A model generated the notes under the pieces. That model did no database searches and had not been told where the DNA came from. It saw nothing but the letters and a program-made list of their open reading frames with translations. 49,460 nucleotides of DNA, taken from assembly GCA_000310025.1 (NCBI GenBank), contig FN648657.1, forward strand, positions 8,509 through 57,968, read 5' to 3'. Shown here one piece after another: positions 3,176 to 34,542 of this stretch; within the stretch, counting starts at the first letter, position 1, and every line of letters starts with the position of its first letter. Made by a program: the position numbers and the translations under genes. This DNA is from Ectocarpus siliculosus. Taxonomy: Eukaryota; Sar; Phaeophyceae; Ectocarpales; Ectocarpaceae.

Positions 3176-3586
3176 ATGGCACTGGGTCATGCAGAGGGGG
3201 AAGGGCAAGAGGAGAAGAACATCTACAGCAGCAGCAGCAGCAGCAGTGATGAGGATGGCTCTGGTTCTGATAGCTCCGATGACGATGATGACTCTTCTTC
3301 AAGCGGATCGAGCTCCTCAAGGTCTTCGTCGTCTGGTAGCGGCAGCGACGATGACGACGACAGGGAGGAGGGGTCTGAGGACGAGAACTTCGAAGTGGGC
3401 TTCTGGGATTCACTCAAGGCGGTGCTACCGTGGACAGAAGCTGGCGCGAAGGCAAGAGAGAATGGCTGTGCTGGCTTTGCCTTGGGGGTGCCTCCTGCAC
3501 CCACATTTATCTATATCTGGCGTCTCAGCGAGTGTCTGCATCTTGCGACCATGTTCATCAACCAACTGGATGCTAAGCTCCTACAA
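3176..3586 (+). CDS. First exon of the giant gene: acidic Ser/Asp-rich N-terminus
   Basis: The ATG lies in a favourable context (GGCATGGCA). The product starts MALGHAEGEGQEEKNIY and runs into Ser repeats encoded by CAG/AGC triplets, then alternating acidic and serine stretches (DDDDD, SSSS, SDDDDDREEGSEDE) over residues 18-78, followed by FEVGFWDSLKAVLPW. This is a low-complexity acidic tail without a fold assignment; such tails are common phosphorylation targets. The donor is either GGG|GTGCCT (3487) or CAA|GTACCT (3586); both are phase 0, matching the next exon. The start is well supported. The link to the exon at 4525 rests on phase only. Confidence 0.6.
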
Positions 3587-6500
3587 GTACCTCGGGTTTT
3601 ATCGACCAGGACAGGCTTGATTAATTCCAGCAGCACTTGGAGTGATTGCGTCAAGAGTAACACACCATTGATGGAAGATCCAACACACGGACACAGCGGA
3701 CAGCAAAAGTCCAAATGTCTATTGAGATGTTGTGCGGTTGTTTGTTGGACGTGTGTTAAGACTATAATAATAGTCTATGACCCCTGGTGCCAGTGCCTCT
3801 TCTCCAATGTCTTTCAAACCGAGCAACGAAAATTTGCCGTAAATAGAGCAAACGGCACTGCGCTAATGTCAAATCGCCTCGTCAAGAGCGCGCGACGCTC
3901 GAGGATTCTCGTCGTGGTACGTTGGAGAAAGGGCGGTCCTAGCCGGGCCCGCACTTGTACACATTGTAGAGCGTCGTACGCATATGATAGAATTGAACGA
4001 TAAACGGGTCAACTCCATACATGTCATGTCGAAGAGCAGATCATACCAATGTTTCTAAAACCACCTGTGAATAATACGGTGTAACTTGACTGTTCCCCGA
4101 CTTCTTCTCTCACTTTACCTCCCGCTTGTTCTGCCTCTCCCAGCTGTGTTTTGTATCAGATCGTATGGCTTCGAACAAAATGCCCCGCGTTTGAATTTCT
4201 AGCATGATTCAAACAAATGAAAATACCCATGATACTCAAACATGGGACGTGCCACCCAACACCATTTCGTTTACACTCATTAACAACCATTGGCTCGAAC
4301 GACTGTTGTCTTGTGCGCTTTGAGGGTATCCCGTTTCCGACCTCTGATGTCTACCGCGCCGAGAAAGTGTTGCACGTTTTGTGACCGCACGGAAACACAA
4401 AAGACAAAAAACACAACTTTCGCATCTCTCCGGCCAAGTCACCTTCAAGCCATGTGAAAACGGTCGCTATCCGTGCTGTTTCGTTGTCGATGTGGTGCAA
4501 TCTGTCGGCGTGCCCATACGCCAGGCCGACTACGCAGAAGAGCGTCTGGATGCTCATCACGAGTTTCAGGAGGAGCTGGACGAAGCTCTCCGGATCCGGA
4601 AAATGGTCGAAACTGGCCTGCACGACATGGCCTTGGACCGGCTCATGGCGAGCACAGAGGCAAGGGCGCACTTCCGACACATTTTTTGCCAAACACGCTC
4701 CTTTGTAATGATCTTCTGCGAGGTAGCCGAAAACGCCACTATTTTCTACATGCAATGTGTGGCACATCAACCGACAAAAATACAGTACCGGCACTATCTA
4801 CGCGTTGAAAAGCTCCTGCTACCCTTCGCGGTGCCTCGATACCCCCCTCTCGGGACAGGGTCAAATGTACCACCACTTCCACAAGCACCGCTACCAGCTG
4901 GAGCAGACCGGGGAGTGGACCTTCGTTCCCCCTTCGGTGAAGCGACGATGGAGACATGCCGTCAAGAAAACTGACAAGGTGGAGAAGCTGCGAGCGTACA
5001 TGGCCATGCGAAGGGACAGATTTCTGCGAATAAGGTGATGTCGGAGGGAGCAAGTTCGCCTGTTTTTTGCCGTGCTTCCTGTTCCGATTCGAGGAAAAAG
5101 TGCATGCCGGAGTAACAGCTAGCCCCACGTAACCTCTGCACTGTCGAAGGGCTGCTTGAGCACCGCCACTGCTCCTACATTCTCTCTAACAAGATCCGGC
5201 TCATGCCCATCATTGTCGGGGGGTTGAAATCTATCCAATTAGTGCGCCTCGAGAATACATCTGAAAGCGGGAGCCCTCTCCTACCGAAGAAGCAAACCAG
5301 CTAACACACGCGAGATCGCCGCGAATCTTCTCGACCATGTGCACACCACACACATTTACGGAAACAGGGGTCTCTGCAGGCAGGTTAGGAACGCTCGTCT
5401 GAAGAGCAGCGATCTCTTGGTGACGGTAGAGCCGGAGAGTCTCATCGACGAAAACCTTCTCCAGGTCGCCGGCGGGGGCAAGAAAAGCAAACCTGCCAAC
5501 CCTTTCGGCGGGGCCCGCCTGAAGAAGTGCCATTGGCAGAACGTCAGTGAGTGGCTCCCGCTGTCGCAACCATGCCGGTCTTGCACGCCAGAACGGTCTT
5601 GCGTGCTTGTCGGCGGATGTATTTTTGTAGTCCTTGCGCCAGACCTAACACGGACCGTATCAGGATGTTTGTTGCTAGTCCCAGCACACCATCCGTTTCA
5701 TGTCTGGCCAAGGGTAGGACATGGCCAAGGGTAGGACAAGGTATGTACATATCGAGCTACCTTGCTGTAGTTACCTGTGACTGAACTCGAAGCGCTTTGG
5801 CGCCGAGAGGTCCTTTGTTTCTTGCCAACCACTACGAGAAGTCCATGACTGTGCTGTTTATCGCGTCACAAACTTGCATCCAACGTTTCCGCTTCTCTTG
5901 TTCACATGCGTCGTTTGAAGACTCGAAGGGGGAGCAGTGCTTCTGTACCAACAATCGCATGGTACACCCGCACCGGCTCTTCAAAGACGAGTTTGGCGTA
6001 CTGGTGAGGGGGTTGGCAGGATAACAGCGTTCAGATGTGAGGCTAGAAAGTGCAGGCAAGACCTCCGGAAACAATGTGCACTGTTTGATCCCTGCAGCAC
6101 ATCACCCTTCGCGTACGGTTGTCGTTCTGCACTTGCTACGGTAGTGCTTGGAACGGTCTTCCTCAACTATAATAAGCACACAACGAAGAGCACGTCGACG
6201 CCCTCGATTGAACGTGGCGTCACGGCTGTAACGGCATGCCAGCAGCGGTGCAGCGGTGCTCGCCACGACAGGTATGTTTCAGCAGATGGCGCGCTTCCAG
6301 TGATGGAACTCCTTGCTTGCCTTGACAGATCCACGACACCCTGGCCACCTGCGGCTGGCACGCGACTCGCTGCGTGTCCAACTCACACGGAGATGATCCG
6401 GTGGTAATCTCCACCGCGAACGAGGGCGCCTTGTGCAACGAATGTTTGGTCCAGGTGAGAGGAGCAGACGCTTTAGAGGACGCCAAGTGCCTTGGCACGA

Positions 6501-9500
6501 CAGGATGTAGAATAACACAAACACCAGTTTCGACGTAAACATGACGTTATGGTGACGGCCGTGTCCGCCAGTACCGTGTTCAGGGGGGTATTTTGCCTCG
6601 GAGTACCGTGGTAGCCTCTGCAGCACCTCAAAGAGCGACCACTCCAGCACATCAGTGACGGAAACAATACCCGCAGGGGAAAAACCTTTACCATGTGCTT
6701 GGATTGTCGAATACGGCTCTCATCGAGCTGCGAAAAATTGCACATGAAGCCACGGGGGAGAACATGGACGCTGGGAATGGTTCAGCCAAAGCTCGGGCGC
6801 GTTGTTGCATCAAGCGAGTACTACGTGGTATGACGATGTCCAGCCCCTGCCCAGGATACTTGCTTATGGTCAAGAACCCCCTTGATATGCGCTACCTGGC
6901 AAATGTTGAACAACGAAATTCGTTGTCCGTGCCTCCTGCAACCCGCTTTCCTGGTTCAGCTTACGAAAGGGCCTATCCGCAACACGACGGCTTTCGGCGC
7001 ACCAGGGGTTCGCTTCAAGAACAAGCGTTTGGGGAGCGCTGACACGGACCCTGGGACGGGCGGGGAGGAGTTCTTGGTGAGAGTAATTATTGGCTCGTTA
7101 GGGTGAATAATGTCCTCTGCCGTAGCTTGCCTGTGATTTCATTGGCCAGCTCTGGCAAATTTGAGCTGGCCAATCCTATGATGTTTGTACTGGCGGGAGT
7201 AGTGGGTGGCCTTCGCGAACATCCACGTGCTCGTTCTAGCAAGAGGAATTCCTGATTTCTTTCGTCAATTCTCTCGATGATGTATCCCTAAAACTGAAAA
7301 AATACTATTACCCAAAACAAAAAAAACACACCCAACCCACCCATACCGCGACGACTTGTTCGATCACTGACCTCCTCCCACCCCCGCTTTCACACCTGCC
7401 CCGCCCAGATGAACTAGTGAAGTTTCATTCACCCTACAAACAAAACGTTCGGTCTTCGTTTTCCAATCGGCACCCCGGTACACACACCATTCCTCCCATT
7501 CATCCTTCAGGCGTGGAATAAGTGGTTCATCAAGGGTCCCGGGCGAGCCCGCAAGAGCGCGATCCGTCCTCGACACCCGCAAGCGCCGCCGGGGTTGCCG
7601 CCCGCAGGCCTGCGCCCCCCTACCGCGTTTGTGCCCCCCCCGCCACCGCCGCCAGTATTTTCGATGGCCAACTTTCGGCGTCAGCAAAAACTGGCACAGT
7701 GGAGGGTGAGGAAGGCCAGAATGGCACGCACTCTCGGATAGATTCCGCCGCATGGTAGCGACTGATGTGTGGAAGTTCGTTTGGGGCAGGGTGGGCCGGC
7801 TCTTGGTCGCATTCAGGTGCTCGTTTTTGATGCTAGAGCGAGGAAGGTTCCCATGCGACCTGTATTTTTGAATGGGCAAACACTTTGTCGGGCGATGCAG
7901 ATGGGTTTTCCACGGTAGTCCCATGGAAGGCACCGCGCTTGGTTCTGGCAGTAAGCGTTTGACTCGGACCTCCCCTCCTTCTATCCCCGATCTGCGGACT
8001 CTCGCGTCTTCGCTGGTTTCGGCCAGCTGCAAAAGGAGAAAAACGGAGAGCGGGCGGCGAGAGCTGTGCAGAGAACCTATCGTGGCTACCGCGCAAGGTA
8101 AGCGAACTGCCCTTCCCCATACAAGGATTCATGTCCAGAGTTGCCGAAGAAGGGTTTGCTTCACCCGTATCACCTGTTCTTGAGGGATGTGAGTCGTGCC
8201 CCCAATTCTCGACACTGTGGAACGCCGCTGGCACCAACAGAGTCCACAGCTGGAACCCGATCTCACCAACTTTCAGAAGCTACGTACGGCTGCGACACAA
8301 ACAAAGCATATAATCATGGTCGGCCGCAGGTTCCACAAAAAAAAACGTAGAATGAATGAAGGGCTGACGATACCTTTCTATCGACTACCGTTCCTGAACG
8401 CACGCCCTTGGGGAAAGTTTTGGCATGTGACATGTAGGACGGGGTGGCAGTGAGAGAACTCTCGGCGTGAAGCTGATGTCGTTTCGGGGTTCTTGGTATC
8501 AGCTGCCGGTAGTAGGGCCTTGACTGAATCCACTATAGTCTAGATGGTTTCACTGCTGTGTAGTGCACACATGTTCTTGCGGAGAACCCATGGACGCGAG
8601 AGGCCTTCTTGAAAAAATTCATCATGTGCTCCGTGCATGAACGCTTCATTTATCATTGGTGTATCCGATCGTGTTTCGCTACATGCGCAGGCACCTGAGG
8701 GCCATGGTGGCCCTGGAGCACCCCTTGAGGGCTCTGCTTCGCGTCGAGTCGGCGATCGTGATGCAGTCCCTGGTCCGCCGGTTCCTTGCGAGAACTCTCG
8801 TGCGACAGGCGAGCACGCATGAATTCATATTAAGGCGGGGTACCTGAATCACCGAGGGGGCCCCCCGGTTGTGTTTGCGGGAACGAGAGCAAATTGATCA
8901 ACAGAAAATAGATGCCGCTTGTTGTACCTTCACGGAACGGAAATATCAGGAAGTTAGAGTGCCAACTTGTATTCTTTGTTGTGCAACTCTGGTGATTCTC
9001 ATACACCCGCATAGCCAAAACAGCAGGCCATCAAATCATAGCCTGTCAAAGGTGCTCCCTCCTTTCTTTCCGTTTCTAACGTACAACGTGGTTCTCGGGA
9101 CTAGCTTGCCCGTTGCGAAGCTCGCGCCCTCAATCAACGCGTGCTTGTCGACGGAAAACCACGATGCGGGGATCGTATCGTACCATTTTCGTGCATGATA
9201 TTGAATCCCCCCCCCCTCCCCATCCTTACTCGAGGCCACGCACCCCCCCCCCCCCAACGCCGCCACCTGCGCCGTAGATCTCGGCCTTCCGTAACATGAA
9301 CGCCACGGCGATCCAAAAAATGGCCCGAGGCATGCAGGCTAGAGCCCTCTTCCGGAGAAAGCGAGCACGGAAAATGGTGCAGCGGCAGATGCTCTTCCTC
9401 CTCGCCAGAGCTCACGTCGCCTCCGCCAAGGTGGCCAGGAGGATCCGCGAAGAAATGCGCAAGAAGAACGTGAGCAGCGGCTGGGGGTACATTTTGTTAC

Positions 9501-12500
9501 AGGAGTCCGTCACTTTGCGCGAGTTGATGTTGGCGGTCGAGAATGTAGTCGTGGCAGTCGGCGGGGGGGTGGACCGAGGGCGGCAGCGGGCTTGGGGTTT
9601 TTGGCGGTCAACCAAGTCATAGTCAACGCAAGGGGAGTCCTGTTCTTCAGTTGCCAACCTATTGGCGCGCAGAAATGCAGGGTGGAGATAGAAACTTGCT
9701 GTAGTCAGTCGCTGCACGAACGACGAACCGCACTGCTGACATCGTGCCATCAGCGAGGAAAGGTAATCGACTACGTGTAGATTCCGGATTAACCTTTATC
9801 TATCTGTTTAGTCGTCTCGTGTGCTATTCAAGCCACGGGTAAGCGGTGGTGGCGCGTTCGGCCTGCCCGTGTTTTTCGGTGTTTCAGGCTGTCGCGCTCA
9901 GTTTTCAGCGAGCTTGGAGGGGGAAGAAAGGGAGGGAGAAGGCGGCGATGTTACGGGCGATAACCGTGAGAAGGCACGGAGCGGCGATCACGACTCAGAA
10001 ATTGTGAGTCTTCACAACCACGACACACAAGCTCTTTGCGATCGTACGCATGCAACACCACACGCACCCTTCAGAACCGCGAATGGGGTCGTGGAATCAG
10101 GTTGCCAATAGGCGTGCGTGTGCGTGCGTGAGAGAACAAAGTTCATTGAGCAGGAAGAGGAACGAAAAGTGTGCGTGCGTAAGAGAACAAAGCCCATTGA
10201 GAAGGAACAGGAACGGAAAGTGAGCAGATGGCGGCGCCATCGAAATGTAAGAAACAACAGGACCGCCCGCGCGCGCGCGCAGTTGACACTATTCCTGCCC
10301 GAGGTTTAATCTATTTCGCCATGGTCGTACCAAGCTTCATGCTCGGCTCTGTCTACGCAAGATCTCTGCGTCGACTCTCGACATTTGAAATTCCACGTTT
10401 GAGCTTCGATCTTGGACACTGGACTCAGCTTGTGTGGCCATGCGCTGTGCATTATGTCGATGCCCGACTGCCAGGAAATGCGCGGCCATTCGTCAGAAAT
10501 AGGCATGATTTTGACAGACCTAACCTGCTCACTTGTCCCTTCACACGCCCTGGTCACTTCCCAACTGGGGACCGCAACACAGTTGGCGGTGTTATGTGGC
10601 GAGGCAAGAGCTTGGGACGCGGCGAGTGGCCCACCGGCGGGAGGTTTGGGCGGCGGTCGCGATGCAGAGCACCATAAGAATGTTCGCCGATAGGTGAGTC
10701 TATCGGCGTAGAATATAGCCACAAGGGGAGAGCAGTAGCTGCCGTGAAATTGTGCCGGCGCAAGCAAAAGAAATCGCATCCAGGTTGTGACATGAAACAG
10801 AGGCGTGTTTAATGGCTTGGGTTGTCGCGAGACGGCCGGGATACTTTGTTGCCGTGGTCTGCAGACCCCACGAACACTTTGAGGCTCTGCTGGTCGTGTC
10901 CAAAGTATTTTCGCGGTCAGCGAAAATGTTGCCGTTCATGTATACTGCATAAGGTTGGTGCGACAAGCTAGTTCACCTCCGTACTTATCTCCGTTGACGA
11001 GGGTGTGGGAAGCACGAAACTCCCGTACGGAGCACCATACCAACTGCTAGCTTACGTGCTTTCGGTGACCACGATCGTCCCCGCAGACACACTTCAAAGA
11101 AGACGGACGCAGGGTTTAACTCGTTTCATTCTCAGGACCTCTCTTTTGTATGGCTTTCCTGCGACATTTTATCTACAGGCGCCGCACCCAGAAGATGCGG
11201 CGAGAATTCGATGGTGCCGTTCGAACTCTTCAGCCACTTGTCCGGGGGCTGCTGGCCAGGGTAACGGCCCGTCGGGAAAGAGCGCTGCTAGGCCAGGTGA
11301 CGCGGTGTGGTTGACTGTGACCGATTCCCTTGACGATTTTCAAGGCATGCCTGATCAAGGAGGTATGGTGAAGTAGGTTGACATTAAAACAATTGACGAA
11401 CGTGGCACCTAGTGATGCTAACGGCAGAAGAGATTGGTATTGGATTCCTGGTGTCGGTTTAATACGATTTCTGGAGGTACATGAGCTTTGTAAGGCCGAC
11501 CGAGAAGGTCGAAAATACGCAAGACACAATTTTTCCGTACTTGCTGATGGCACACCCCCAACGACCACATACACTGGGTGTTGCGCATGCTGTTTCGGTC
11601 TCCTCCCGGAATAAACAGGGAAGGGCATCAACAACTATCAGCCTGTTGAGATGGTGAATTTTGTGGACAGGGTGAAAAGAGTACCCATTGAAAGCCCGGT
11701 TGATCCATTATGACTGTGCCGATTCGCTGCCAGCCATGCCAGAACTCCCAACAGAGAAAGCATCACTCCAACTCTGCAAACGTGTAAATGGTTCCCGATT
11801 GTCGTGCACTAGCAGCAACACGCTAAATAGCGGTTGCAACCACCAAAGATCATTTTCCCCCCTTCGCGTCCGTATTATTATTTCCTCTCTTCAACCTTCG
11901 CTTCGCGTTGTTACAGGTCTGGGGGTGGCTCGGAACGGACACCGTAACGGCCAACGGTATCTACGCCCGGTTCTTGCCCAAGAACAAGTACCTCGTTTCC
12001 AGAGAAAGCGCACCTTTACAACAGTTCTCTGCGTCCCAGTCCGCCAGCGGGAACGTCGATGCGGGGAATTATGACGAGTTACAGAAGGTGAACGCCGAGA
12101 TCAGGCAAGCAGCAGCCTGGTGCAAGTGCGTGTGCTGTCTGTACTTTGTCGTTCGACCTTTGCAGGTGTGGAAAGATCGACACCAGAGGGCAGCAGTCTT
12201 GTTTGTAAATCTGTTCCTGTAGTTGCAGTCCCGATTGCCCTGGTGGACAGCGTTCGTGCGGGACCTCCGTGACTCACGCTTAGGGTATTCGCTTCCATCC
12301 CGGAAATTGACTCACATACCACGTCCCAGCCTGCTCACAACACCGCCCCGCCAAGTGTTGTGAACGTAGCTTGCAGCAAGGATGCAGAGTGTACGCGGCT
12401 GACACCATGCTCGTTGCTCGTCGCATTGTAGGGACTCGGGTCCACCTCTTCTCTGGTCCGATCGACCCTGGAAGCACTCCCCGGGGAGAGACACTTCACG

Positions 12501-15500
12501 GAAAAGTTTGACAGGGACAGGACAGGCACCTGCTCCAAGGTCGAGTTCAAGATCGGTCTCGAGAGGTGGGCTTCCCTTGTAGCGGCGTTTTCGCGACAAC
12601 GATACCAACAATGGTAACAGCGATAGCACGGTGTGATCAATGAAAAAGTCGGTCCACACACATGCAACGAGTACTATTTTCCACATAGGCAAGCGAAACG
12701 TGCATTCAACTCCGCGTCCTCCCCCCCCATAACCTAGCAACAAAGCCTTGGTACGTATTTATTGTTCCCTTGCCTCGGATAGAAAAACGGAACGCAACGT
12801 CGGTCTAGCAACAACATCAATCTAGCCGGCATGCCGATTTTCCCGCGGTTGAGAGAGGCAAGAGTCGTTAAGGGAACACGCAAGGGGGAAACAAGTGAAC
12901 AAACCGCACCCCTCCCCCCCCCTCCCACTTGTTTGCCATCGGGGTTTGGGTTTTTGTCGTATGGCAACGTTTGCCATCGGGGTTTGGGTTTTCGTCGTAT
13001 GGCAAAGACGTTGTAAAACAAGCTGCTCCCCCCGGTGTTTGCCATGGGGGGTGGGTTTTCGTCACTTCGTGAGCTCGGCAACCAGGTTACCTCTTATTTT
13101 TTGCCATTAGTTGTTTTTTGGGTAACTATCATGGTGGTCGAGAAGATTACGTTGTGCGGGGTCGAGAACCCTCACTCCGCGCATAGGGGATAATCGCACC
13201 ACGTGATAAATTGGTCAAGCACCCTCGAGGCAGTTACACCGTGCTCACAACTGTCTCTGGAAGTGAAAGCACCAGAACATATCTTAATTCATACGCGGCT
13301 GTCATCCGAACGCAAGGAAGTAAGCACAAGATGCCGAACACCCTTAGCAGGATGCAGCGCACCGTTTATGCGATTTGCCAAATAGCTCACGGCGCTGTAT
13401 GCTTGGTGATGTGAGAGCCTGATCCCGTGAGAACCCGGCGTGCTCCGTCCCGGCTTGTTAGGGAGGCGAGGTCTAAATGGTGTAATGACTACGGCATGCA
13501 CGACTATGAGTACACCCCCCCCCCTCTCCCCCTCTCCGTCCTCCCGCTGCTGCCCAGCTTCCTCCGCGAAGCGGGCTATCCGCTCCAGAAAGAAGAGGCA
13601 GCCTTGATCGTGAAGCGTTACTTCGACGGAGACGGCTTTTGCGCCTGGCACTCGTTCCTGAACTCGTACCACAACGCGGGCTCCAAGTCGAGCGCCTGCG
13701 CCCGACATGGCCGCCTCCTGTGCACGCTGTGCATCCGGTGAATAGAGGCAATGCGGGGAGTGGAAGAGGCGGGGAAAGCAGGCGGGGATTTGGGCGAGGG
13801 TAGAGGAGGATGGGAGCGAAGTCATTGGAGTACTGCATGGTACTGTGCGCTAGCAATGGGCCATCAGTGCGTTCTTCTGAAGAAGAAATGTGCATACAAA
13901 GTGATGCACATTGTTCCTCTTTTCAACTCGGCGTGAAACAGTTGTCTCGATTATGTTGTAAGTGCTCTTTGCCCTTCACGTCTTCGAGATGATGCGCCGG
14001 TGATACTGTCCACGATTCAAAGAAATGAAATGGTTTGTCCTCGCTCCCCCGATTTTCCCAAGGCACGGACGGTGCGAAAAACCTGGGTGTGCGTGCACAA
14101 AAGCCCGTGCCGGCAGGACGAAGCAACTCGGCTTTAAGATGTGCGAATGTGGGCACGTGTTCGACGCCCATGAGCTGGTGGTGGGTGGATCTGGGCCTGC
14201 AAAAGGGGAAACCGTTCGGAAGCAGGACCAGCGTGGTCGGGTGGTTCCGCAGAAGCAGGTGCGATCCTGTCCTATCTTGAGGATAAAATAAGTTTCATCT
14301 TCTAAAAAAAGTAAGTCGTGATGACCTCTATCCGGAGATAAGAGCCCAGGAAACCAGCGATGAGTTAGTGCTGTATTCGACGTGAAAAAGGTTTTTCTAA
14401 TACTCGAAACCATGCAAAGACAGCTGCCCAGGGGGTAGAGGGGGAGAGCGCATGAGGACAGGGACGGGGGGCACCTTATGTGGAGCGGGTTGTTTATTTG
14501 AATATACATCGGTAACGTTGAAAACAATTGCTGGGAGCGTTTCCCTCTGACATATTGTCCCAATCTCCCGCACTACTGACAGTTTTGTTGCACCGCCCAT
14601 GGGCTGCCCATGGGTGACCCATGGACATGCCCATGAGCGGCCCATGGGCGGCCCATGAAGTGCCCACCGTGGGCACTTCAACCTAGAACTTCGCCACCGG
14701 CATATCAGCCTAGAATTTAGCCACCTTCACATCAACCTATAGTAGAACTCAGCCACCAGCGCCAACCTAGCACGTATTGTGTGGGCTTGGGGATAGGGTT
14801 AACGTTAGCGTTAGGGTTATAAGCCGCTATAGTGCCCGTTCCCAAGCAGATATACTATTGTCTGGTTCGGTTGAAGGGCTCTCATTGGCCGCCCATGGGC
14901 GTCCCATGGGCTACCCATGAGCACGCTCATGATGGACTGCCCATGGGCCTAAACGTCGCGCCCATGGGCGGCCCACGGATCATCCATGGGTCACCCATGG
15001 GAGTCCCGTGGGTCGTTTGGGAAAACTGTACAAAGTGTGGGAGACCCTATGGTCCTCGTATTGTATTGTGCGCGTGCCTACCGTAGGGAAGTGGTCGATG
15101 CTCGTAGTTCGATTGCGAGCACGCCTCACATCTACTGCTCTGACTGAGGACATCACCGATTCTTGCCCGTATAACCGACGCTTTGACCGGACTTGCTTGA
15201 GCAGTTTGCCGGTCATTGTCGCTTCACGTCATCTGCCGCCGCTTCCCGTGAATCGCGATTCATGATTTTAGTATCGACGCCTCCAAAGACAAGTACTGTT
15301 CTGGCACCCGTGCTGCCGACCCCAGACATGATACGCCGACCCCGAAAATCACGCCCCTTCGATATTCCCCTACAGCTCAGTGCTTTGCTGTCGAAAGGCC
15401 TGTCCAAGACCGTCGTCGACCGGCCAATCAACGTCGAGGGCTGCTCCGCAGCGTCAAACCTCCGCCGGGCTCAATACACCAATAACTCCCCATCTCAAGC

Positions 15501-18500
15501 GGCCCTCATCTCCGCTCAACGTCCCAACGGCTTCCGCGTTACCGGCGCGCGCGGGGGAACCAAAACGCCTCCACATGCGACAACGTCCAGTCGCGCCCGA
15601 CGGCGGTGGCGACGACAGAAGCCGGGCAGGGGATCAAGAAGCATCACCGAAGAAGCAAGTCAACCGGGTGGTATAACAGCGCTTTCTCTGGCAGAGCTTT
15701 CCCCTCCATTCTTTGGGCGTCGTACATCAGCCGATGGTGCTGATGGTTCTGGTGCTGCTGCGCTGTCACCGACTGCCACTGGGGATGTTGCGGGCTTCCC
15801 AAAGGAAAATTTGGACATGGTTCGTCCCGCAAACCAGGGTGCTACGTCTCCGAACAAGAGAAAAATCACCTACATACCATCGGTAGGTTTTGTGCTGTGA
15901 ACAATATCGCGTTTATTGCTACGCTCCAATCGTCCAACAAGCTTCATATGCCAGCACGGTGATATTGTTCTAGGCCATTTTTAGTCTTGAGAAAAGGGTG
16001 GCCCCCTCTCGAAGTTACTTTATACCGCAATTATTGTTCATCACTTGGCGATCTCTGTGGACGAGAGCATGGACGTTCGCGCAGTAACGTCTGCACCATC
16101 GGAAATGATTAGAACCAAAGGGGGTGTGAGTCAGGGGCAGAAATGCGCCACATTTTAACTTTAGAAGACGCCAACGCGTTCGTTCATTCTGACCGGCGGT
16201 TTCACATTCATTTAGGCTTTTTGGCAGTACTCGAGATGAAGTAATTCTGCATTCAACCTAACATGGGATCTTACCATTGTCTTTTTGTGAAAAGTTTCAA
16301 GAGGCGAGGAGCCAAGAGAAGGAGCGTCGTGACGCCTCGTGCGCGGGGAGGCGGGGGCAAGCGGAGAGAGCCGCGCTCGCCGAGATGAACAGCGCTGTCC
16401 AGGGAAAGAACGCCGCAGATTACGCCGCCAAATGTAAGGCATTGCGGTGCAGTGCTCGTTAGGTCCTTAGAGCGCCAGCTGAACGATGTGCAAACAGTTT
16501 TCCCACCTTCGTGAAAGAGAGTACAGGGCTAGCCCACAGTGTTTGACTATTCGGCGGAAGGCAATGGACATGGAATGCTTTCATTTATCGCCCCCAAGCT
16601 TTCATACTTTCAATCCGACGGTATCACGCGCAAAGAAGCGCGTAGAGCGCAAGTGCAGACATGAGGATCCGCACAATCATTCATGATGGGGTGTGCGTAA
16701 TGAACAAAAGCGTCGTTTTATGCGGTCGACCGCATAGAGAAAAAGAAAGGTCAATACCACATTCCGCTTTGCACGGTATCTCGATCGAAAGCCGGGAACG
16801 CATTGGATTAACAAACGCAGTTGTGTTGGCGCGTAGCTCACGATGAAACCACTCGAAACCACATGCTATTCACCACGTATTAATGTCGCAGAGGAAGCAG
16901 AGACCATGTGCAAGACGATCGCTGACTGACATATATGCTTACTACCAATGTTGACATTGGGGTTTTCCGCTTGTTAGTGCAAGATGACATCGCGACAAAC
17001 ACCTCGAGGGTGGATGGCCGGCTGTGCCTCGCTCCCGTCATGAGCAAGAAGGAGCTACGGCAAGGCTTTGCGATCTCGGCCGCCGTACCCTTCGTCAAGG
17101 CTGGCACACTAAAGGCGCGTGAACAACCGTGTCAATGACCATAAGTATCTGCAGCTGCTTTTATGGGATTGTTTCGCGTCTACATGTAGATGCCACATTT
17201 TACGCAATATTCCCATCTACCGATCCTCAGGGCGTAAGAACTCGGTTCCGTGCTTGCCCATTAGTCAGAATCAAGTACAAATTTGAGACGAGACTCAGAA
17301 CAACTTCTCGCCATTCAGCACTTGAGCAAACTAGAAGTGAATATTGACGTGCGCTGTTCGTGAATGGTTTTCAGGACCGGCAACCGCGTCCTTGGTGATC
17401 GCTAAGTAGCCCATCTATCCCTCTCTCTCGTACACTACTCACCATCACCCCTCCAGCCGCAGCAACTACTTTCTTTGACCGCTGAGTCTCTAGTCAGCGT
17501 CTAGGGCTCTTGCGAGAAGATGGCAAAAAATAATGTCATTGGAAGAATTATTGAATTCGACTAGTCCCGTGTATCCTTTCCTCTCTTGTTGGTTGGTAGC
17601 AATATTACCAATCGGCGTGCGTGTATATTGGTGGGCACACGAATACGCGTTGGGTGGAATTTTTCAACACCTGCAATAAGAGACGAGCATCGTCGTTGTC
17701 TCGCAATGATTGTGGCCTTCGTTGTGCCCGATTCTTGTGGCTGACGCACCTTGGTGCGTTATCAGATGGTGCGTTAAACGAAACAGGTCGGCCATGTTAA
17801 TCCTTTTCCTTGCCCCTTGTAGGAGACGGCAGATCCTCTCCAACGATACTTTGTGTGGATGGGACATAGTAATAGGTCTGGTTGTTTGGTACGACGCAGT
17901 AACCGGCCGTGCCTGTTGCTTCTTCATTTGTGCAGGTCACCACAGACCCAATCGGGCTTTACCTTTACCTCCTTAAGGCTCTGTCCGACGAGAGGCACGA
18001 GCTGCTTGAGGATGATAGACGTTTCACTGACTTCGTGGCAAGGTGACCCCAGAGAACCTTTCAACCCCTTGCGGCCGGTTTAGCAGTCTACGAATATTTT
18101 GGCGACGTACCCTCGTCAGAGAGTGCGGCTCATGAGCAAACCTGCTGTTGACGTTTGCACTATGTAGTGAAACGATTTTCATGGAGGAGGAAGGAGTTCA
18201 CGTCTTGTCCTGGCGGTCCTATTGCACCCCGTCCCTGGCAACGGGGAAGCGAGAAAAAACATCTACCTACTACTGTACGTCGTGACAATTTCTCGGTTCA
18301 AAGGCGAGGGATCCTAGCCTCTTACACGAAACTCACGGCCATGAAAGACACGTGTGTACGCTGAATTCGTTGGGACTGCTCCCCGTTCTTCTAATGTGTA
18401 CTGCGCCAGTTTGTTCTGGCCAAGAAGCTGTCGGTCGGCGGAGTTGGCGGTCTGTAGGTGTTGGGACCCGTCGGCCGGTTTTCCCAAACTGTGGTCTCCC

Positions 18501-21500
18501 TACAGACCATACGGAATTTCAGAGAGAACCTCCTTTCCGACCGACAGACGATACCTACGTAGTGCTATAACCTTTTTCGTGCTTCGTTTGAGAAGTACTT
18601 TGCGGATAACGCGAGCTGAAGCATCAAAACAAGGTTCAAATGCTGAACTATTCTCGCAGTACAGTAATGCTGGGAAACGGACTCACGCATATTCGCATGT
18701 CTCACAAGGCACAAACAGCGTGAACCTTCAACAGGTCCGGTGGCCTCAGGCGTGCGTGTCAGGAAGGCCCGCGAATGGAAATCACCTGCAGGTTTGGACG
18801 TGATTGTATTATCTTTTTTTATACCTTCCCGTACCGCGCTCGTCCGCCGTTCTCGACCGCGTTCTCGTCGACGTAACGACGACATCGTCCACGGCAGGCA
18901 TGCCGTGTTTTTGGAGAGGCATTGGTGCAAGCTCATCAAGGACATCAGGAACGGGGCGACAGACCCCCACCTCCCCATCTCGGAGGCGGAAAGGATGAGA
19001 GTCGAGGTGCGAGTGGAAATCGAAAGATCTGTGTACATGTCTTCCTTGCCCACGAGATCCCAAGAGAATATCTGCTGGTAATGTGAAATGAATTAGTGCC
19101 GAACGGCAACAGCTGTTGGGCTTGTTTACTAGTACCTGAGTGCATGGTTCAATGCATCTATCTGCTCTGCAAGGTACGGGCGAGGCTTGGGAAAACATGA
19201 TGCTACCGACTTGCCGAAGCTCGATCGCCTCTCTTTCTTGCCATGTTCCAACCCACCACACTCCTGCCCGTCCTGTCCTCAGCACAACCAACTGTCCAGT
19301 CTGACCCTTTCCGCGTACCCAACATATCGCACACCAAACACGTGGCAACTCCAGGGCCTAATGATTCCGAACAAGAAGCGGGCGCAACGGCTCGACGACC
19401 GCCTTCGAGCTCTAGGCTTCCATGCCCGAGCCTCCGGCATCTACAAAACAGCCGCGTCTGCTTCTGCCACTGGTACTACTGCTTCTGGTTCTGCAACTGC
19501 AAAACGACGCGCGCCGGGACAATCGTCAAGGAACGGTGGAGGAGGAGGAGGAGAAAGGAAAGATACTAGTAGCTCCGCGGGGAGCAGGCCACATACTCAG
19601 GAGGAGAAGCAGGAGTCCATGGCGAAGATGGTGGAAGCCTGCAGGAAGCGGAGGCCCGGGACCGCGGAGAGTGAAGCTGGCGGCACCCCCGAACAAAGGT
19701 GGATGAGCGCTTTGAAGCTGCTGCGCTATTTTTTCTTCGTCTCACCTCGCTTCTGACAAGCCAAAAGATGACTTGACGTTTCAAGAGCAAGAGAATCGCG
19801 TGCCTGTGTACAGTTTTTTGTTTGACACGTGCGGAGGGTTCAACAACCACTCACAAAGGTGCGTCGTGTTTATTCAAAATTCAGCCGTGTGTGAAGTAGC
19901 AGCCAGCGGACGTAGATGTCGTTTCGTGTACTGCTTGGACAGAATCCGACGTCCCACCAATCGAACTCGTCTTTCGCCCTGAACGTCACGGGCTCTCCGC
20001 GTCCTAGCGCCCGTCCGCTCTCGGAGCATTCCATTCGAGAAATACTTGTCGGCGTAACGCATTAGTGTCACCTTTTCCCCCACCACCTTCTCCAGTGTTC
20101 GGAGAAAGCGACGGACAGTGACAGGTGGAGAGATGGAGTCTGCAGTTCGTCTTTTGAAGTCTAGGGGGGAGTCTAGAGCGAGGAGTCCAAGCACCGGGGC
20201 TTGGCAGGCGGTAAGCGAACCTTACTTCGGAAGCCAGACCACCAAGATGGCTTTGCAATTGCCGCTGCCCTCGAATCATTTGTCCACAAGAACGAGTGTT
20301 TGTGTTGCCACCACTCGATCTTGCCGGTCATAGATGTGTGTCAGCGTAGGAAGGGAAAGCAGAGCTGGACCGTGTACCTCGGCACGGGCCTTACCCGATG
20401 ACGAAGTGCTGCCGCATCCTCTACCACCGTGGGTTGTCAATAGGGCTGGGTATTCTGGACGGGTAGCCGGTATTGAGCGAGTGACGGTTATTGGCGCAGG
20501 TAGAACAAGCACCTTGTCGTTTGTTTTGAAGACAGTGGGTGACTCCTACGGGGCAGGTGAACCAGCGTAGCACATGCTTGCCCGAAGAGAGGGACCACCA
20601 CTGTATCTCGATCCATCACCCCCCGGTCTTCCTCCTGCCTCCATCACAGTGAGAACAGCCCCTCTCTCAACGCGCCACTAGGCCTAAGGAGGCGGGCCGA
20701 TTCCAGCCCAGGCCACAACTCGAAGACCTCGAACTATGCCAAACCGGTCCCAAACGATGATAACTCGATCAGGTTCCTACGGTAGAGCAAGCCTCAAAAA
20801 CGGCCTACGGGCTCCTCACGGCCGCCTCGGCCAACGCCGCCGGAGTCGTCCAAGCGCCTTCGGGCCGCGGGTTCCGCAAGCACGTGTGCCTGCATCCCGG
20901 CTGCGGGAAGGTTTTCCATCTGAAGGCATCGGCGGACAGACACCAGGAGAAGGAGCACCGCTTCCGAATGAGACTCGGTGAGAAAAGGCGTGCGATCGCA
21001 AGAACCGCGGAGTGCCGTTGTTTTGGTCGAAAGGTCAAGGGAACTTTGTTGCCCAGAGAGTGCCGAAAATGTTGATGAGATGCCGACCGCGCTTGTCGTT
21101 CTCGTTGTCGTCTTTCTCTCTCTCTCTCTCTCTCTCGCTCTCGCTCTCCCTCTCTTCCCCTTCTGGCCACATGGCTTGTTCTATCCGCCCGTCAACCCTC
21201 CCCGCCCATCTCCTACCCCTTTCTGCACGCCCTCGCCGCAGCGGCACCAACGCCTCTCACCGACCAGTTCATGCTCCCATCATGGCCTTCGGATGGCGTA
21301 CCGTGGTCGTCAGGCCTGCCGGCGCCAGGCAGAGGAAAAAAACACACCTCCGTGAGCAAAGGGACGGTTACAGCTTGCAGGGGCCCAGCCGGAAGAACGC
21401 CAACCAAGACCGCCAAAACCGTCGGCGCCGGCGGGAGCGCCGGCGACACCGTCCTCGATCGCGGCGATGCTAGCCTTCACGCCCGGTTCGCGTGCGGGGT

Positions 21501-24500
21501 CCCCGGGTGCAGCCACCGGTTCCCGGAGGCTCGCCTACTAGGGCTCCACCTCCGCATGGGTCACAACGAGTTCGATTTGGAGAAGATGAAAGCGAGGAGG
21601 GATGGGACGGTGCCTACCCAGACCCTCGACGGCGTTACCGTCACGGCTGCGATCGACGTCGGCGGCCATGTCAGGTTAGTCGGGGGTACGCAGGAACCAT
21701 GGCAGAAACCTGTTTTGGTTTTGAAGCAAAGTCGTGGGGGGGCTGTAGGTAGCGGCCTGGACGAGGCACAAGGCTTTGTTGTATCTTTGACACAGGTCTC
21801 GTGGCCGCAAGTTTACAATATTTGCCGATAGTGAAGACGAACACGCAGCGAAATAGGCCAATTGAAACTCACGCCACTAATCACTTTTTCGTGCACGTCA
21901 CCGTCCACCCGCCCAACAGGGCCAGCTTCCTCGGCGCCTACCGCCTGGTTCCGCCATTCCAGTCTCCCACCGGGTGCCCGGACATCCCAGCGTGCGGTTT
22001 GCACGGCAGGCCCAAGCACGGGTGCCAGCGTTGTGCCGATATTGCGAGACAGTCGGCCGCGGTGGGGGCTGATGACGGAGGCGAGCCGGAAGACGGCAGG
22101 CCGCCGATGGGGTGGCCGCTTCCCCCGGCGAAGTTTTACACGCGAGCGATGGTGAGCTGGTCGGCCTCCCCCGCGGGTAGAGGGAGCAGGCAGCGTGATA
22201 AATGTGTCGCTATCACGAACAAAAGCCCCGAAATCACGCGCACGCTGGTTCAGTAGTCACATCTTATGGCCACCTTCAACATCGTTTGGGATTTGTCCTG
22301 ATTTCAGACGTAGTTGAGAGATGGAACTGGCAGGAAGTCGGGTACAGGCGACCTCAGAAGAAGAAATCCGTGAGGATTTGATAAGGGTTTGTGGGTAGAC
22401 CTGAGAACATGCTAGGATGCGTGGATTCCCCGAACACGCCAAGAATTAGGCGTTCGCCGAACGACATGCATTACCGAAGGCGTTAGCGCCGGGATGATAC
22501 ATTCCCATTGGGCTCGAGGATGCATTGTACAACAAACGTATCACCGGTTGAGGCCAGAGACATCGTTTGTTTTCGTCCATTCGGCATGTCCTTCAGTCAA
22601 AGCTTCTTCTTCTCTTCCCTAGGCCGTATCCTTGCGCAATCTCCCATAGGTTCTCCGCCCGGCACCCTAGACCACCTCACCCCTACCATCACGCTTCGCC
22701 AAACATGTGCTCTCGAATCTGCTTCTCGATACCCCGTACCCTCCGACCATCGCCCGGGCTCGCTTGTGCTCCTCTCAGGTTGTGGTGAATCACCACGGAA
22801 GGCCAATAAACCTCGATCTCGATTGTGCAGAGGAACTGCGGTGCCCCCTCCTCCGCTTTCCTCTCCGCTCTTGCAACCCTTCAACTGGTCCATCTGTTGA
22901 GCACCGTCGGGCCGACAATGCCACCGACGATAAAGCGGGTGGGGATGCGTTGCCCGATGTGGACTCCGTGCTGCCTGGCTTTGGTGATGGGCTGCAAGGG
23001 GGTCAAGAAGCGTCGAGAAACTTGACGGCGTCTTCAGGGGGAAGCAGGAAGGATCTGACCGATGATGGACAAGGCGCCAGCGCTCCGAAAAACGACACCG
23101 ATGGTGGAAGCGGCAGCTTTCCTGCGAGGAGCGGACCTAGTATTGATGCCTGCATCGACGACAACGGCAACGACGATGTTCTCCCTCAACATTTCCTGAC
23201 AGGCGGCGGAATCGATCCCGCGGGTTTGGGCGAGAACAATTCCCACCACCAACACGAACCACAACACCATCAAAACACTCACCATCAGCGTCACCACCAG
23301 CACCAGCACCAGCATCATGGGGCGCTGGTTCCAGCGCGGCTGGTTGCGGTGCTCGTGGATGGCTCAGGAAAGGGGTGGATGGCGGCGCGACGCCTGTGGT
23401 CCGTGCCCGACGTGGGACACCACGCTCTGGCTGAGGCCGGGTTGACGGCCGGGGATGTCGACCGGGAGCAAGAGGTGAGCTATTCCTCGTGTAGCTCTCA
23501 CGAACAACCCCATCGCATGTCGAGATATGAAGGTAGCAAGAGGTCACCACTCACCATGTACGTGTAGCAAACCATTCGGATAGCGCCGCAGGAAAAGGGA
23601 GCCCGTGAAAGACTGGCAAAAACAATCTGCGTTTGTTGGCTGGCATATGTTCTGCGTTTGAGAGGCACATACCTTTGCCGTCGGGGGTAGACGGGGTTCC
23701 GCTACAAAATGCAAGGAATCCTCGTATACCCCAGTGTGTGTCTTTTCATGGCTGTGTTCACGTTGGGCCTTGTGCCTACTGTAGCTCAGGAACCACTCAG
23801 TTTTCCTTGCAAGTTTCCGTACCTCGCGTACGCACGTTGTATCTAACATCATAAGCTGCCGCGCCCATTGCGTAACATGGCGTCACTCCATCGTCAGTTC
23901 TTTGTCGCGACAGAGGTGGAATATCTCCCGCTGTCCCTCGTGCGCGACACTTGCACCGTCACGGTTGACCGGAAAAAGGATGTACATTCCAAGCAGCGCT
24001 CAGGAGTCCTACCCAAGTCAATGAGGTGAAGAACAGTAAACTAATCTGTACTCTACTGCTGCTTTTTTACAACGTCAGTTTCTCTACATACTCGGTGGGG
24101 TTGTGTGCTGTGGGTGAGATATCACATGTCAGGTGGAACACCTTACCGGCAGGAGTGGGCGTATATGGTAGCATCTACACCCCCGTATCACAACTGCCCG
24201 TGAAGGCGTTTTGCTCGATAGCATCCTTCGCTGCGCCTTGCCTGGGGGCACACCGGAGTTGGCGGTAAGTATTATTGGACGGGGCAATGAAAAACTGTCA
24301 ATGTTGACTTAACAGCGCCATGGATAGCCGTTGAGAACATGTCGTTCCATTGCGCATCGGCTGAAGAAGAGTCAATGGCACAGTACCCAGTCGAACTCAG
24401 AGCTGGCTTCATCAAAAATAATAGTCATTGTTTGTGCGCCAATCCCCGATCTCTTCCGCAATGTCATTTTCCGGGTGGAGGTCACAGCGAGTAGCAGCAG

Positions 24501-24885
24501 CCGACCCACTGTGTGGAGGCTAAATAGACATTTTTTTAGGAAACTTTACGTTGCTTTTGTTTGGCCATCGGGGGACGGCATTTTGCGTATCTACATGGTT
24601 CATCCATTCCTTGACACTTTTAGTCTATTTTACTCATGAAACTGTTATGTACGCCCTCAACGGCTGTAATGGCAATGGGAGATATGTCAACCTGCGCTGA
24701 TACCAGGGTCACTCCCTATGTTGATGGGGTACACGTGAGACCCCCTGTTTATGCCTAACACTGATATTACTGCCCTTTGCCATAGGTACGTGAGCCACGG
24801 CGTGGACAGTGCAACCGGTGCGGTTATTCTGGAGTCAGAGCTAAGGCTGAGGGAGGAGCGTCTTGTTCTCCGAGAAGGACATTGA
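3176..24885 (+). CDS. Giant multidomain protein: acidic N-terminus, IQ motifs, EF-hand-like segments, Cys clusters, two C2H2 fingers
   Basis: Proposed exons: 3176-3586, 4525-4722, 4859-5034, 5380-5546, 5921-6003, 6329-6454, 6677-6817, 6960-7076, 7511-7705, 8027-8097, 8691-8808, 9278-9469, 9888-10003, 11179-11296, 11917-12087, 12432-12613, 13558-13737, 14063-14258, 15205-15882, 16295-16433, 16978-17118, 17946-18042, 18898-19077, 19300-19698, 20096-20210, 20773-20977, 21314-21674, 21920-22151, 22779-23474, 23856-24025, 24133-24264, 24786-24885. Every junction keeps phase; the total is 6,603 nt including the stop, about 2,200 residues. IQ motifs bind calmodulin or myosin light chains in known families and EF-hands bind calcium, so a calcium-responsive scaffold is inferred; no catalytic domain is recognised. 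Less certain points: the end of exon 1 (3487 is an alternative), exons 7, 22 and 24, a possible extra exon at 12163-12201, and whether exon 1 belongs to this gene. Confidence 0.7.
4525..7705 (+). CDS. Giant gene exons 2-9: helical and Cys/His-rich N-terminal third
   Basis: Exon 2 encodes a charged helical segment (ADYAEERLDAHHEFQEELDE). Exon 3 is very basic (KRRWRHAVKKTDKVEKLR). Exons 4 to 6 carry a Cys/His cluster: CHWQNV, then CFC...HPH, TCGWHATRC and ALCNECLVQ, which looks like a metal-binding module of unknown type. Exon 7 has LYHVLGL followed by a helix, faintly like the start of a J-domain but without an HPD motif. Exon 9 holds a proline run (PPPPPPPVFSMANF) and then the start of the IQ region (RRQQKLAQW). 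Phases at the junctions are 0,2,1,0,0,0,0,0. The donor of exon 7 (CGA|GTACTA) is the weakest choice. Confidence 0.65.
8027..11296 (+). CDS. Giant gene exons 10-14: IQ-motif (calmodulin-binding) array
   Basis: Five small exons encode consecutive IQ-type motifs (pattern IQxxxRGxxxR, often degenerate): AARAVQRTYRGYRAR (exon 10), AIVMQSLVRRFLARTLVRQ (exon 11), ATAIQKMARGMQARALFRRK (exon 12), AVALSFQRAWRGKKGREK (exon 13) and AVRTLQPLVRGLLARVTARR (exon 14). A weaker one, AAITTQKL, spans the 13/14 junction. In known proteins such arrays form a long helix that binds calmodulin or EF-hand light chains. Phase continuity is exact: AG|G, CAG|ATC, AAC|GCT, TT|G, CAG|GTC. Exon 11 appears to end at a GC donor (CAG|GCGAGC at 8808/8809); a GT alternative (CTC|GTGCGA) is also in phase. 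Confidence 0.82.
9243..9255 (+). repeat. Poly-C tract before a 3' splice site
   Basis: Thirteen C residues lie about 20 bp upstream of the predicted acceptor of the exon at 9278. Together with flanking C-rich sequence it acts as an extreme polypyrimidine tract. Confidence 0.8.
10120..10220 (+). repeat. Tandem duplication of a ~50-bp unit
   Basis: Two adjacent units share GTGCGTGCGT, AGAGAACAAAG, CATTGAG and GGAACGxAAAGT with a few substitutions. The duplication lies in the intron between exons 13 and 14 of the giant gene. It is a simple tandem duplication, not a known element. Confidence 0.85.
11917..14258 (+). CDS. Giant gene exons 15-18: EF-hand-like segments and a Cys cluster
   Basis: Exon 15 encodes VWGWLGTDTVTANGIYARF. 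Exon 16 holds an EF-hand-like segment: helix, then the loop DRDRTGTCSKVE (acidic at positions 1, 3 and 12, Gly at 6), then FKIGLERW. Exon 17 continues FLREAGYPLQKEEAALIVKR and YFDGDGFCAWHSF, which looks like an EF-hand loop shortened by two residues. Exons 17 and 18 join in phase (CG|G) to make CARHGRLLCTLC, HGRCEKPGCACTK and KMCECGHVFDAHELV: eight or more Cys plus His, probably a zinc-binding module. The 12432 acceptor (GCATTGTAG) and the 13558 acceptor (a long C/T tract, then CCCAG) are strong. Calcium binding is inferred from the motif only. Confidence 0.72.
12915..13514 (+). repeat. Dispersed element, copy 1 (in an intron of the giant gene)
   Basis: Begins with partial tandem copies of TTTGCCATCGGGGTTTGGGT (12934, 12970, degenerate at 13037), then runs through GTCACTTCGTGAGCTCGGCA and AGAACCCTCACTCCGCGC to CGACTATGAGTA, followed by poly-C. 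A second copy lies in inverted orientation at about 41032-41570. The two share many blocks over about 500 bp with substitutions and small indels. No coding sequence or clear target duplication is seen, so it is best described as a non-autonomous dispersed repeat. Its C-rich end abuts the acceptor of the exon at 13558. Confidence 0.8.
14591..15013 (+). repeat. Cluster of GCCCATGGGC-type palindromes flanking a short tandem array
   Basis: Two dense groups of CCCATGGG palindromes (14594-14680 and 14887-15012) surround a stretch where AACCTA...GCCACC-like units recur (14680-14775). More than a dozen copies of CCATGG or close variants occur in about 420 bp. It lies in the intron between exons 18 and 19 of the giant gene. 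Origin unknown. Confidence 0.85.
14796..14820 (+). repeat. Short interstitial telomere-like sequence
   Basis: The sequence reads TAGGGTTAACG, then TTAGCGTTAGGGTTATAA, i.e. degenerate TTAGGG units between the two palindrome groups. It is too short to be more than a scar or coincidence. Confidence 0.45.
15205..20210 (+). CDS. Giant gene exons 19-25: low-complexity and helical middle region
   Basis: Exon 19 is a 226-residue basic, Pro/Ser/Ala-rich segment (RRPRKSRPFDIPLQ, later SADGADGSGAAALSPT and SPNKRKITYIPS) ending in phase 0 at TCG|GTAGGT. Exon 20 is charged and helical (RSQEKERRDASCAGRR, QAERAALAEMNSAVQ). Exons 20 and 21 join as AAK-L-QDDIATNTS. Exon 22 encodes PIGLYLYLLKALSDERHELL. Exons 22 and 23 join at AG|G, giving FVARHAVFLERHWCKLIKDI. 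Exon 24 has KKRAQRLDDRLRALGFHA and a Ser/Gly-rich stretch. I recognise no family here. A second acceptor (17936) exists for exon 22 and one (19174) for exon 24. Confidence 0.62.
18428..18547 (+). repeat. Nested inverted repeat (fold-back)
   Basis: CTGTCGGTCGG (18428-18438) pairs with CCGACCGACAG (18537-18547), and inside it GGTCTGTAGG (18449-18458) pairs with CCTACAGACC (18499-18508). The approximately 120-bp unit could fold into a stem with two paired arms. It lies in the intron before the exon at 18898 and resembles a small fold-back repeat. Confidence 0.75.
20773..24885 (+). CDS. Giant gene exons 26-32: two C2H2 fingers and the C-terminal region
   Basis: Exon 26 contains CLHPGCGKVFHLKASADRH followed by QEKEH, a C2H2 finger with C-x4-C and H-x4-H spacing. 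Exon 27 contains a second one, CGVPGCSHRFPEARLLGLH then LRMGH, with identical spacing. Exon 28 adds a further Cys/His group (CPDIPACGLHGRPKHGCQRC). Exon 29 is 232 residues, acidic and Ser-rich, with a His/Gln-rich tract encoded near 23238-23319, then LVAVLVDGSGKGWMAARRLW. Exons 30 to 32 encode FFVATEVEYLPLSLVRDTC, WNTLPAGVGVYGSIYTPV and YVSHGVDSATGAVILESELR, ending REGH-stop at 24885. Junction phases are 1,2,0,0,2,2, all matching. Nucleic-acid binding is possible from the fingers but not shown. Confidence 0.78.
21114..21160 (+). repeat. CT microsatellite
   Basis: A run of CT dinucleotides with a few CG interruptions (CTCTCTCTCT...CGCTCTCGCT) within the intron between the two zinc-finger exons of the giant gene. 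Confidence 0.9.
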
Positions 24886-34361: not shown

Positions 34362-34542
34362 CCTCCTCCTTGAGGTATACCAGGCTCCTCCTTGAGGTAT
34401 ACCAGGCTCCTCCTTGAGGTGTACCAGGCTCCTCCTTGAGGTATACCAGGCTCCTCCTTGAGGTGCACCAGGCTCCTCCATGAGGTATACCAGGTTCTTG
34501 AGGTATACCAGGCTCCTCCTTGGGGTATACGAGGCTCTTGAG
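34362..34542 (+). repeat. Minisatellite, 22-bp unit
   Basis: About eight head-to-tail units of CAGGCTCCTCCTTGAGGTAT plus AC, with single-base variants (GTGTAC, GTGCAC, CATGAGG) and two shortened units near the right end. Because 22 is not a multiple of three, the frame through it cycles every three units. Confidence 0.92.

Follow-up and report, generated by a model that had tools for sequence, protein, structure and literature searches.

A predicted Ectocarpus siliculosus gene combining an IQ array with EF-hand-like, Cys/His and C2H2 modules

Do the IQ motifs, EF-hand-like loops, cysteine clusters and zinc fingers that follow one another on one strand of an Ectocarpus siliculosus contig belong to a single gene, and what kind of protein would such a gene encode? 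The question concerns positions 3176–24885 of a 49,460-nucleotide stretch of contig FN648657.1 (assembly GCA_000310025.1, contig positions 8,509–57,968), which we refer to as the window. A sequence-only reading of this DNA had proposed a 32-exon protein of ~2,200 residues. Our preferred interpretation, to which we give about an even chance of being right, is one brown-algal gene encoding a putative Ca2+/calmodulin-regulated scaffold of ~1,900 residues with zinc modules.

The predicted splice chain and its coding evidence

Between the ATG at 3176 and the TGA at 24885, a splice-chain search over coding blocks that had first been picked by eye from the sequence of 1–26.3 kb and its open frames yielded a single plus-strand frame of GT/GC–AG exons with zero internal stops. 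A TAG stands in frame immediately 5' of the ATG. The first run used too small an exon penalty and returned 134 exons, an over-permissive result that was discarded; stronger penalties gave versions of 34 exons (1,962 residues) or 30 exons (1,876 residues). Doubtful exons were then dropped or trimmed. Exon 10154–10219 was removed because it lies inside a tandem repeat (10118–10222), and exons 18304–18351 and 18735–18791 because the GH3 profile discussed below scores higher without both. The longer exon 13462–13737 was cut to 13558–13737 on EF-hand spacing, a choice later backed by comparison with PDB sequences, and exon 11917–12165 was trimmed by eye to 11917–12087. This left a working model of 31 exons (1,847 residues); a variant with the longer low-complexity exon 15376–15882 and an optional exon at 22319–22369 comprises 32 exons (1,940 residues). 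The exon count proposed earlier was therefore about right, and the proposed length 13–19% too high.

Codon usage was scored on the 34-exon version by a leave-one-out procedure, in which each exon was scored with training on the remaining exons; a set of long open frames that looked mixed was kept out of the training. In 27 of the 34 exons the model frame outscored the other five frames, and in 30 it outscored the other two forward frames. Guanine–cytosine content was higher in exons than in introns (0.612 versus 0.517). For splice phase, the top-scoring donor and acceptor around the core were picked, ignoring phase, for 28 of the 34 exons, six weak ones being excluded; agreement at one third of the junctions is expected for equal phase use. 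Two of the 27 junctions lacked an acceptor and could not be scored, and phase agreed at 18 of the other 25 (binomial p 9e-5, permutation p 3.4e-4), in a test that is partly circular because the exon cores were taken from the phase-constrained model. The statement that every exon joins in phase holds for the model, in part by construction. Both codon usage and splice phase support the view that the coding chain is genuine.

Modules along the predicted protein

The six IQ-like motifs lie within 230 residues, the array spanning residues 439–648, and none of 2,000 shuffled sequences held as many. The patterns used in this and in the EF-hand, C2H2 and Cys/His shuffle controls were composed after the motifs had already been seen. 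The Pfam IQ profile (PF00612, cut-off 20.3 bits) reached 36.4 bits over five stretches in a 341-residue piece and 34.7 bits in a 186-residue piece. The IQ motifs of the sequence-only reading were recovered, as was its observation that junction codons finish motifs, since the first and fifth are completed across introns (Table 1). As a feature of the predicted protein we regard the six-motif array as secure, and it would be expected to bind calmodulin. IQ-array calmodulin-binding proteins include myosins, ASPM and IQGAP. The array resembles those of PF00612 proteins in that motifs of the [FILVM]Qxxx[RK] type follow one another, four of them with the following G, and differs in that Pfam found no motor, calponin-homology or RasGAP domain in the chain, the IQ motifs being joined instead to an EF-hand pair, Cys/His modules and C2H2 fingers.

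The first EF-hand loop carries the complete Ca2+ ligand pattern at positions 1, 3, 5, 9 and 12 of its 12 residues, under a pattern that permits the Cys of DRDRTGTCSKVE; any such loop arose in only 3 of 2,000 local shuffles. The second lacks the first and last ligands (positions 1 and 12). When exons 12432–12565 and 13558–13737 are joined, the loops start 39 residues apart (744 and 783); the spacing in EF-hand pairs is usually 36 residues or so. Among the PDB matches of these joined exons, 16 of 17 were of the EF-hand type (calpain, centrin, calcineurin B, CaBP7 and MACF1, the last of which we take to be an EF-hand construct), each of them weak (best E 0.038). A control piece with the longer exon 13462–13737 gave no PDB match at E up to 10, and both the shorter exon and the EF-hand pair are therefore supported. 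Calpain small subunit, centrin and calcineurin B share with the studied pair the ligands of loop 1 and the order of the pair, and the alignments shown span the predicted exon junction; the studied pair departs from them in the missing ligands of loop 2 and in a score under the Pfam cut-off. The EF-hand-like loops reported earlier are thus upheld for loop 1, a probable Ca2+ site by its ligand pattern, and are degenerate for loop 2, with Pfam below the cut-off throughout.

Paired modules of the type C-x2-H...C-x2-C occurred in none of 2,000 shuffles. PDB matches of the N-terminal Cys/His module to a bacterial adhesin (E 0.04 or worse) were judged to be chance. The EsV-1-7 Cys motif family (PF19114) is described, in the part of one report that concerns it, as expanded in brown algae (PMC7457493). 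Its profile gave at least 150 matches in the E. siliculosus genome, all over the cut-off (150 scored of 880 first-look candidates), and no signal in 14 control genomes. The studied protein has a Cys/His-rich module in common with this family and resides in the same genome, but PF19114 matched it neither in pieces nor as the whole chain.

Towards the C-terminus, the C2H2 pattern C-x2-4-C-x12-H-x3-5-H with core hydrophobic residues occurs twice, and not even one occurrence was produced by 2,000 local shuffles. The fingers lie 90 residues apart from start to start, with 66 residues between them. Both follow C-x4-C-x3-F-x5-[LA]-x2-H-x4-H, as in what we take to be the TFIIIA/KLF type, and KLF10 is a weak match; they differ from TFIIIA/KLF fingers in being only two, non-tandem and below the cut-off of the Pfam profile. 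The two fingers of the sequence-only reading are accordingly regular as patterns and fall short as profile matches.

One module had been overlooked. Residues 1081–1178 of the 31-exon model align with positions 184–278 of the 304 in PF03321, the profile of GH3 acyl-acid amido synthetases, at 30.5 bits (E 2.8e-7, cut-off 23.6). The four scores obtained with this profile (24.7, 28.5, 27.1 and 30.5 bits) are all above the cut-off, and the rise from 24.7 bits with the two doubtful exons to 28.5 bits without them in a 158-residue piece, and to 30.5 bits in the 31-exon chain, helps to choose the splice form. The likeness extends over some 95 positions of the profile, in the N-terminal domain. Positions 1–183 and 279–304 were unmatched in the whole-chain Pfam scan, as was any other GH3 part, which sets the protein apart from GH3 enzymes. 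Plant GH3 enzymes account for four of seven rows of the PDB comparison, at weak E values (0.0078–0.37; GH3.5 and GH3.6 at 0.008–0.01), and an NCBIfam search returned nothing. A GH3 profile search of the genome found no match, in a coarse search that was silent at the studied locus too. One report, in the part that bears on this family, deals with the GH3 family of land plants and streptophyte algae, with few algal members reported (PMC10015382). We consider the stretch GH3-like by sequence and find no support for reading it as an enzyme.

A single gene or adjacent genes, and a proposed function

Similarity that crosses predicted junctions backs the links within two modules: EF-hand pairs span 12565/13558, and GH3 spans 18042/18898 and 19006/19355. 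These links are supported at the level of sequence comparison. The flanks were counted in favour of a single gene: the first exon of a ribosomal protein L4 gene (RPL4) diverges from it about 0.5 kb upstream, and a gene-like open frame (26,453–26,980) lies downstream on the opposite strand.

Several results weigh against one gene of this kind. Four of the 34 exons, those at 7511, 8027, 9888 and 10154, failed the codon test; phase disagreed at 7 of the 25 scored junctions, two of which (5546/6329 and 19698/20773) sit where a weak intervening exon had been excluded; and GC donors are required at five introns of the 31-exon model and four of the 32-exon model. In the whole-chain Pfam scan, which used the 31-exon version, IQ reached 19.2 bits, just under its cut-off, and the EF-hand profiles PF00036 and PF13405 reached 14.8 and 17.1 bits against cut-offs of 25.4 and 25, the match covering loop 1 only and changing little with the choice of exon (17.1 or 15.6 bits). 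The C2H2 profile (PF00096), at 15.1 and 15.7 bits against 25.2, is absent from the whole-chain listing. A genome search with the IQ profile, in which 150 of 205 candidates were scored, listed four places, none at the studied locus. Lastly, the links between modules are predicted from phase and the splice model, and none is proved.

The weakest point of the single-gene chain is the gap 14259–15375. At 1,117 bases it is the longest intron in both the 34- and 31-exon models, it contains repeats, and the junctions backed by homology all fall within modules, none bridging it. Two or more adjacent same-strand genes may therefore have been fused by the model, for example one with the IQ, EF and Cys modules (3.2–14.3 kb) and another with the GH3-like stretch and C2H2 fingers (15.2–24.9 kb). 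The best splice sites flanking the gap are nevertheless in phase, with a fair donor (5.6) ending the exon on its 5' side and a fair acceptor (4.5) opening the exon on its 3' side, and we hold such a fusion to be possible, though on the unlikely side. That the chain is a decayed gene or a chance series of open frames appears highly improbable: codon usage is poor in some exons and one candidate exon fell inside the tandem repeat 10118–10222, but coding bias in most exons, phase agreement and motifs retained across introns argue otherwise.

Two other readings bear on what a single chain would be. The C2H2 pair could bind DNA and the IQ/EF part confer a response to calmodulin, giving a calcium-responsive transcription regulator functionally like CAMTA. 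In CAMTA transcription factors, IQ motifs are accompanied by CG-1, TIG and ankyrin domains. The two fingers are well formed, and their nearest matches elsewhere in the genome (E 0.19) fall where several similar fingers lie together, but only two are present, separated by a spacer of 66 residues, and the Pfam scans found none of the three CAMTA domains; we think this reading quite unlikely. It is very improbable that the gene acquired, or descends from, a GH3-type acyl-adenylase of which one piece was retained: the profile alignment and the GH3.5/GH3.6 matches described above point that way, and the unmatched remainder of PF03321, the empty NCBIfam search and the lack of a GH3 match in the coarse genome search point against it.

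Returning to the calcium-regulated scaffold, the protein would begin with an acidic head (residues 25–70, and not the acidic tail described before) and a Cys/His module, followed by a helical IQ array carrying calmodulin or calmodulin-like light chains and then by the EF-hand pair with its one probable Ca2+ site. The further Cys/His modules may hold zinc and bind partners, the GH3-like stretch would be part of the scaffold with no use assigned to it, and the two C2H2 fingers could contact protein or nucleic acid. Ca2+ would then have two points of action, the calmodulin bound to the IQ array and the EF-hand pair, and would stiffen or rearrange the scaffold. The combination put forward earlier, in which one chain senses calcium through calmodulin and its own EF loops and also carries fingers, is the best reading here too, with binding of calmodulin, Ca2+ and nucleic acid as its presumptive part; we infer these ligands, as well as Ca2+ switching and any localisation, from sequence features that are themselves observed.

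Should the chain prove to be a single protein, brown algae, whose multicellularity evolved independently, would possess a large scaffold linked to calcium, with a domain order new to Pfam and to the solved structures compared. It would offer a concrete target for studying the coupling of calcium signals to structure or to gene control in this lineage, and in its GH3-like piece a fragment of an enzyme domain would sit within a non-enzyme chain. A more speculative proposal, which we rate as rather unlikely, is a brown-algal and perhaps stramenopile-wide family whose members would unite an IQ array carrying calmodulin and an EF-hand pair with repeated Cys/His modules, C2H2 fingers and a helical piece of GH3 origin put to new use outside the enzyme, the whole forming a dual-input Ca2+ scaffold outside the named families.

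Relatives, tabulated features and the rest of the window

The domain order matched no named family in Pfam or among PDB sequences. To that extent the earlier remark that it comes from no recognised family stands; an unknown family is not thereby established, and the protein may well belong to an annotated yet uncharacterised family in stramenopile proteomes. A literature search that left most subscription journals outside found no description of it. Five pieces searched against the genome (189 Mb, 492 contigs) returned, among the best candidates scored, the studied locus and weak matches only (E 0.08 or worse), a search that could miss a diverged copy. The weak matches lie on contigs C2 (E 0.08), C33 (8.3), C21 (0.40 and 0.19) and C25 (0.19 twice). 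The C2 stretch was rejected as a paralogue, having low-complexity-like matches only (best E 0.028). The C25 stretch (2748000–2757900) holds several C2H2 fingers, the closest in the genome to the studied pair; tblastn of the 31-exon chain matched none of the other modules convincingly there, and it too was rejected. No relative was found by tblastn of two pieces against viral contigs or of one piece against a collection of genome contigs.

Table 1. Features of the window discussed here; a slash within a motif marks an intron.
Feature	Position	Strand	Evidence or remark
RPL4 first exon	2525–2752	−	recognised by eye; Pfam Ribosomal_L4 21.6 bits, below 25.8 cut-off
Predicted gene	3176–24885	+	31–32 exons, about 1,850–1,940 residues, TGA 24883–24885; splice chain and codon/phase tests
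Acidic Ser/Asp-rich N-terminal stretch	3248–3385	+	exon 1, from sequence
N-terminal Cys/His module, residues 246–318	5528–6445	+	over three exons; no Pfam match there
IQ motif 1, VQRTYRGYRA/R	8066–8691	+	completed over intron 8098–8690
IQ-like motif 2, MQSLVRRFLAR	8761–8793	+	highest-scoring stretch in Pfam scan of 341-residue piece
IQ motif 3, IQKMARGMQAR	9311–9343	+	pattern and model
IQ motif 4, FQRAWRGKKGR	9903–9935	+	pattern and model
IQ-like motif 5, MQSTIRMFAD/R	10662–11179	+	completed over intron 10694–11178
IQ motif 6, LQPLVRGLLAR	11228–11260	+	pattern and model
EF-hand loop 1, DRDRTGTCSKVE	12510–12545	+	canonical ligands by pattern; Pfam below cut-off
EF-hand loop 2, YFDGDGFCAWHS	13619–13654	+	degenerate; exon 13558–13737 yields pair spacing
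Middle Cys/His module, C-x2-H-G-R-x2-C-x2-C then CEKPGCAC...CECGHVFDAH	13697–14171	+	spans intron; no Pfam match
Low-complexity basic region	15376–15882	+	donor 15654 (GC) or 15882 (GT)
GH3-like stretch	17972–19405	+	exons 17936–18042, 18898–19006, 19355–19698; PF03321 28.5 and 30.5 bits; weak PDB matches
C2H2 finger 1, C-x4-C-x12-H-x4-H	20887–20958	+	pattern; PDB KLF10 E 0.054
C2H2 finger 2, geometry identical to finger 1	21493–21564	+	pattern; Pfam 15.7 bits, below cut-off
C-terminal Cys/His module, CGLHGRPKHGCQRC	21993–22034	+	pattern resembles middle module
Optional 51-base exon, RWNWQEVGYRRPQKKKS	22319–22369	+	weak acceptor; frame kept with both neighbours
His/Gln-rich stretch	23244–23318	+	within largest exon, 22779–23474

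An Rfam scan of the window gave no match. The palindrome GCCCATGGGC, together with close variants, recurs many times in the intron region 14595–15010, and a tandem array of about eight copies of a 22-base unit occupies 34358–34537. The open frame at 26453–26980 and another at 37187–37768 (minus strand) are similar and membrane-protein-like, an apparent duplicated family; both match Pfam 7TMR-DISM_7TM weakly (17.4 and 22.5 bits, cut-off 29), and fragments resembling them were seen by eye near 32.0–32.7 and 39.0–39.9 kb. Further downstream, 47074–47355 on the minus strand encodes an EGF-like domain (CFNNCSGRGRCIDYTCECDAGYDGDDC) above the cut-off of the Pfam EGF profile, overlapped by a frame at 46662–47219 in which hydrophobic stretches were noted by eye.

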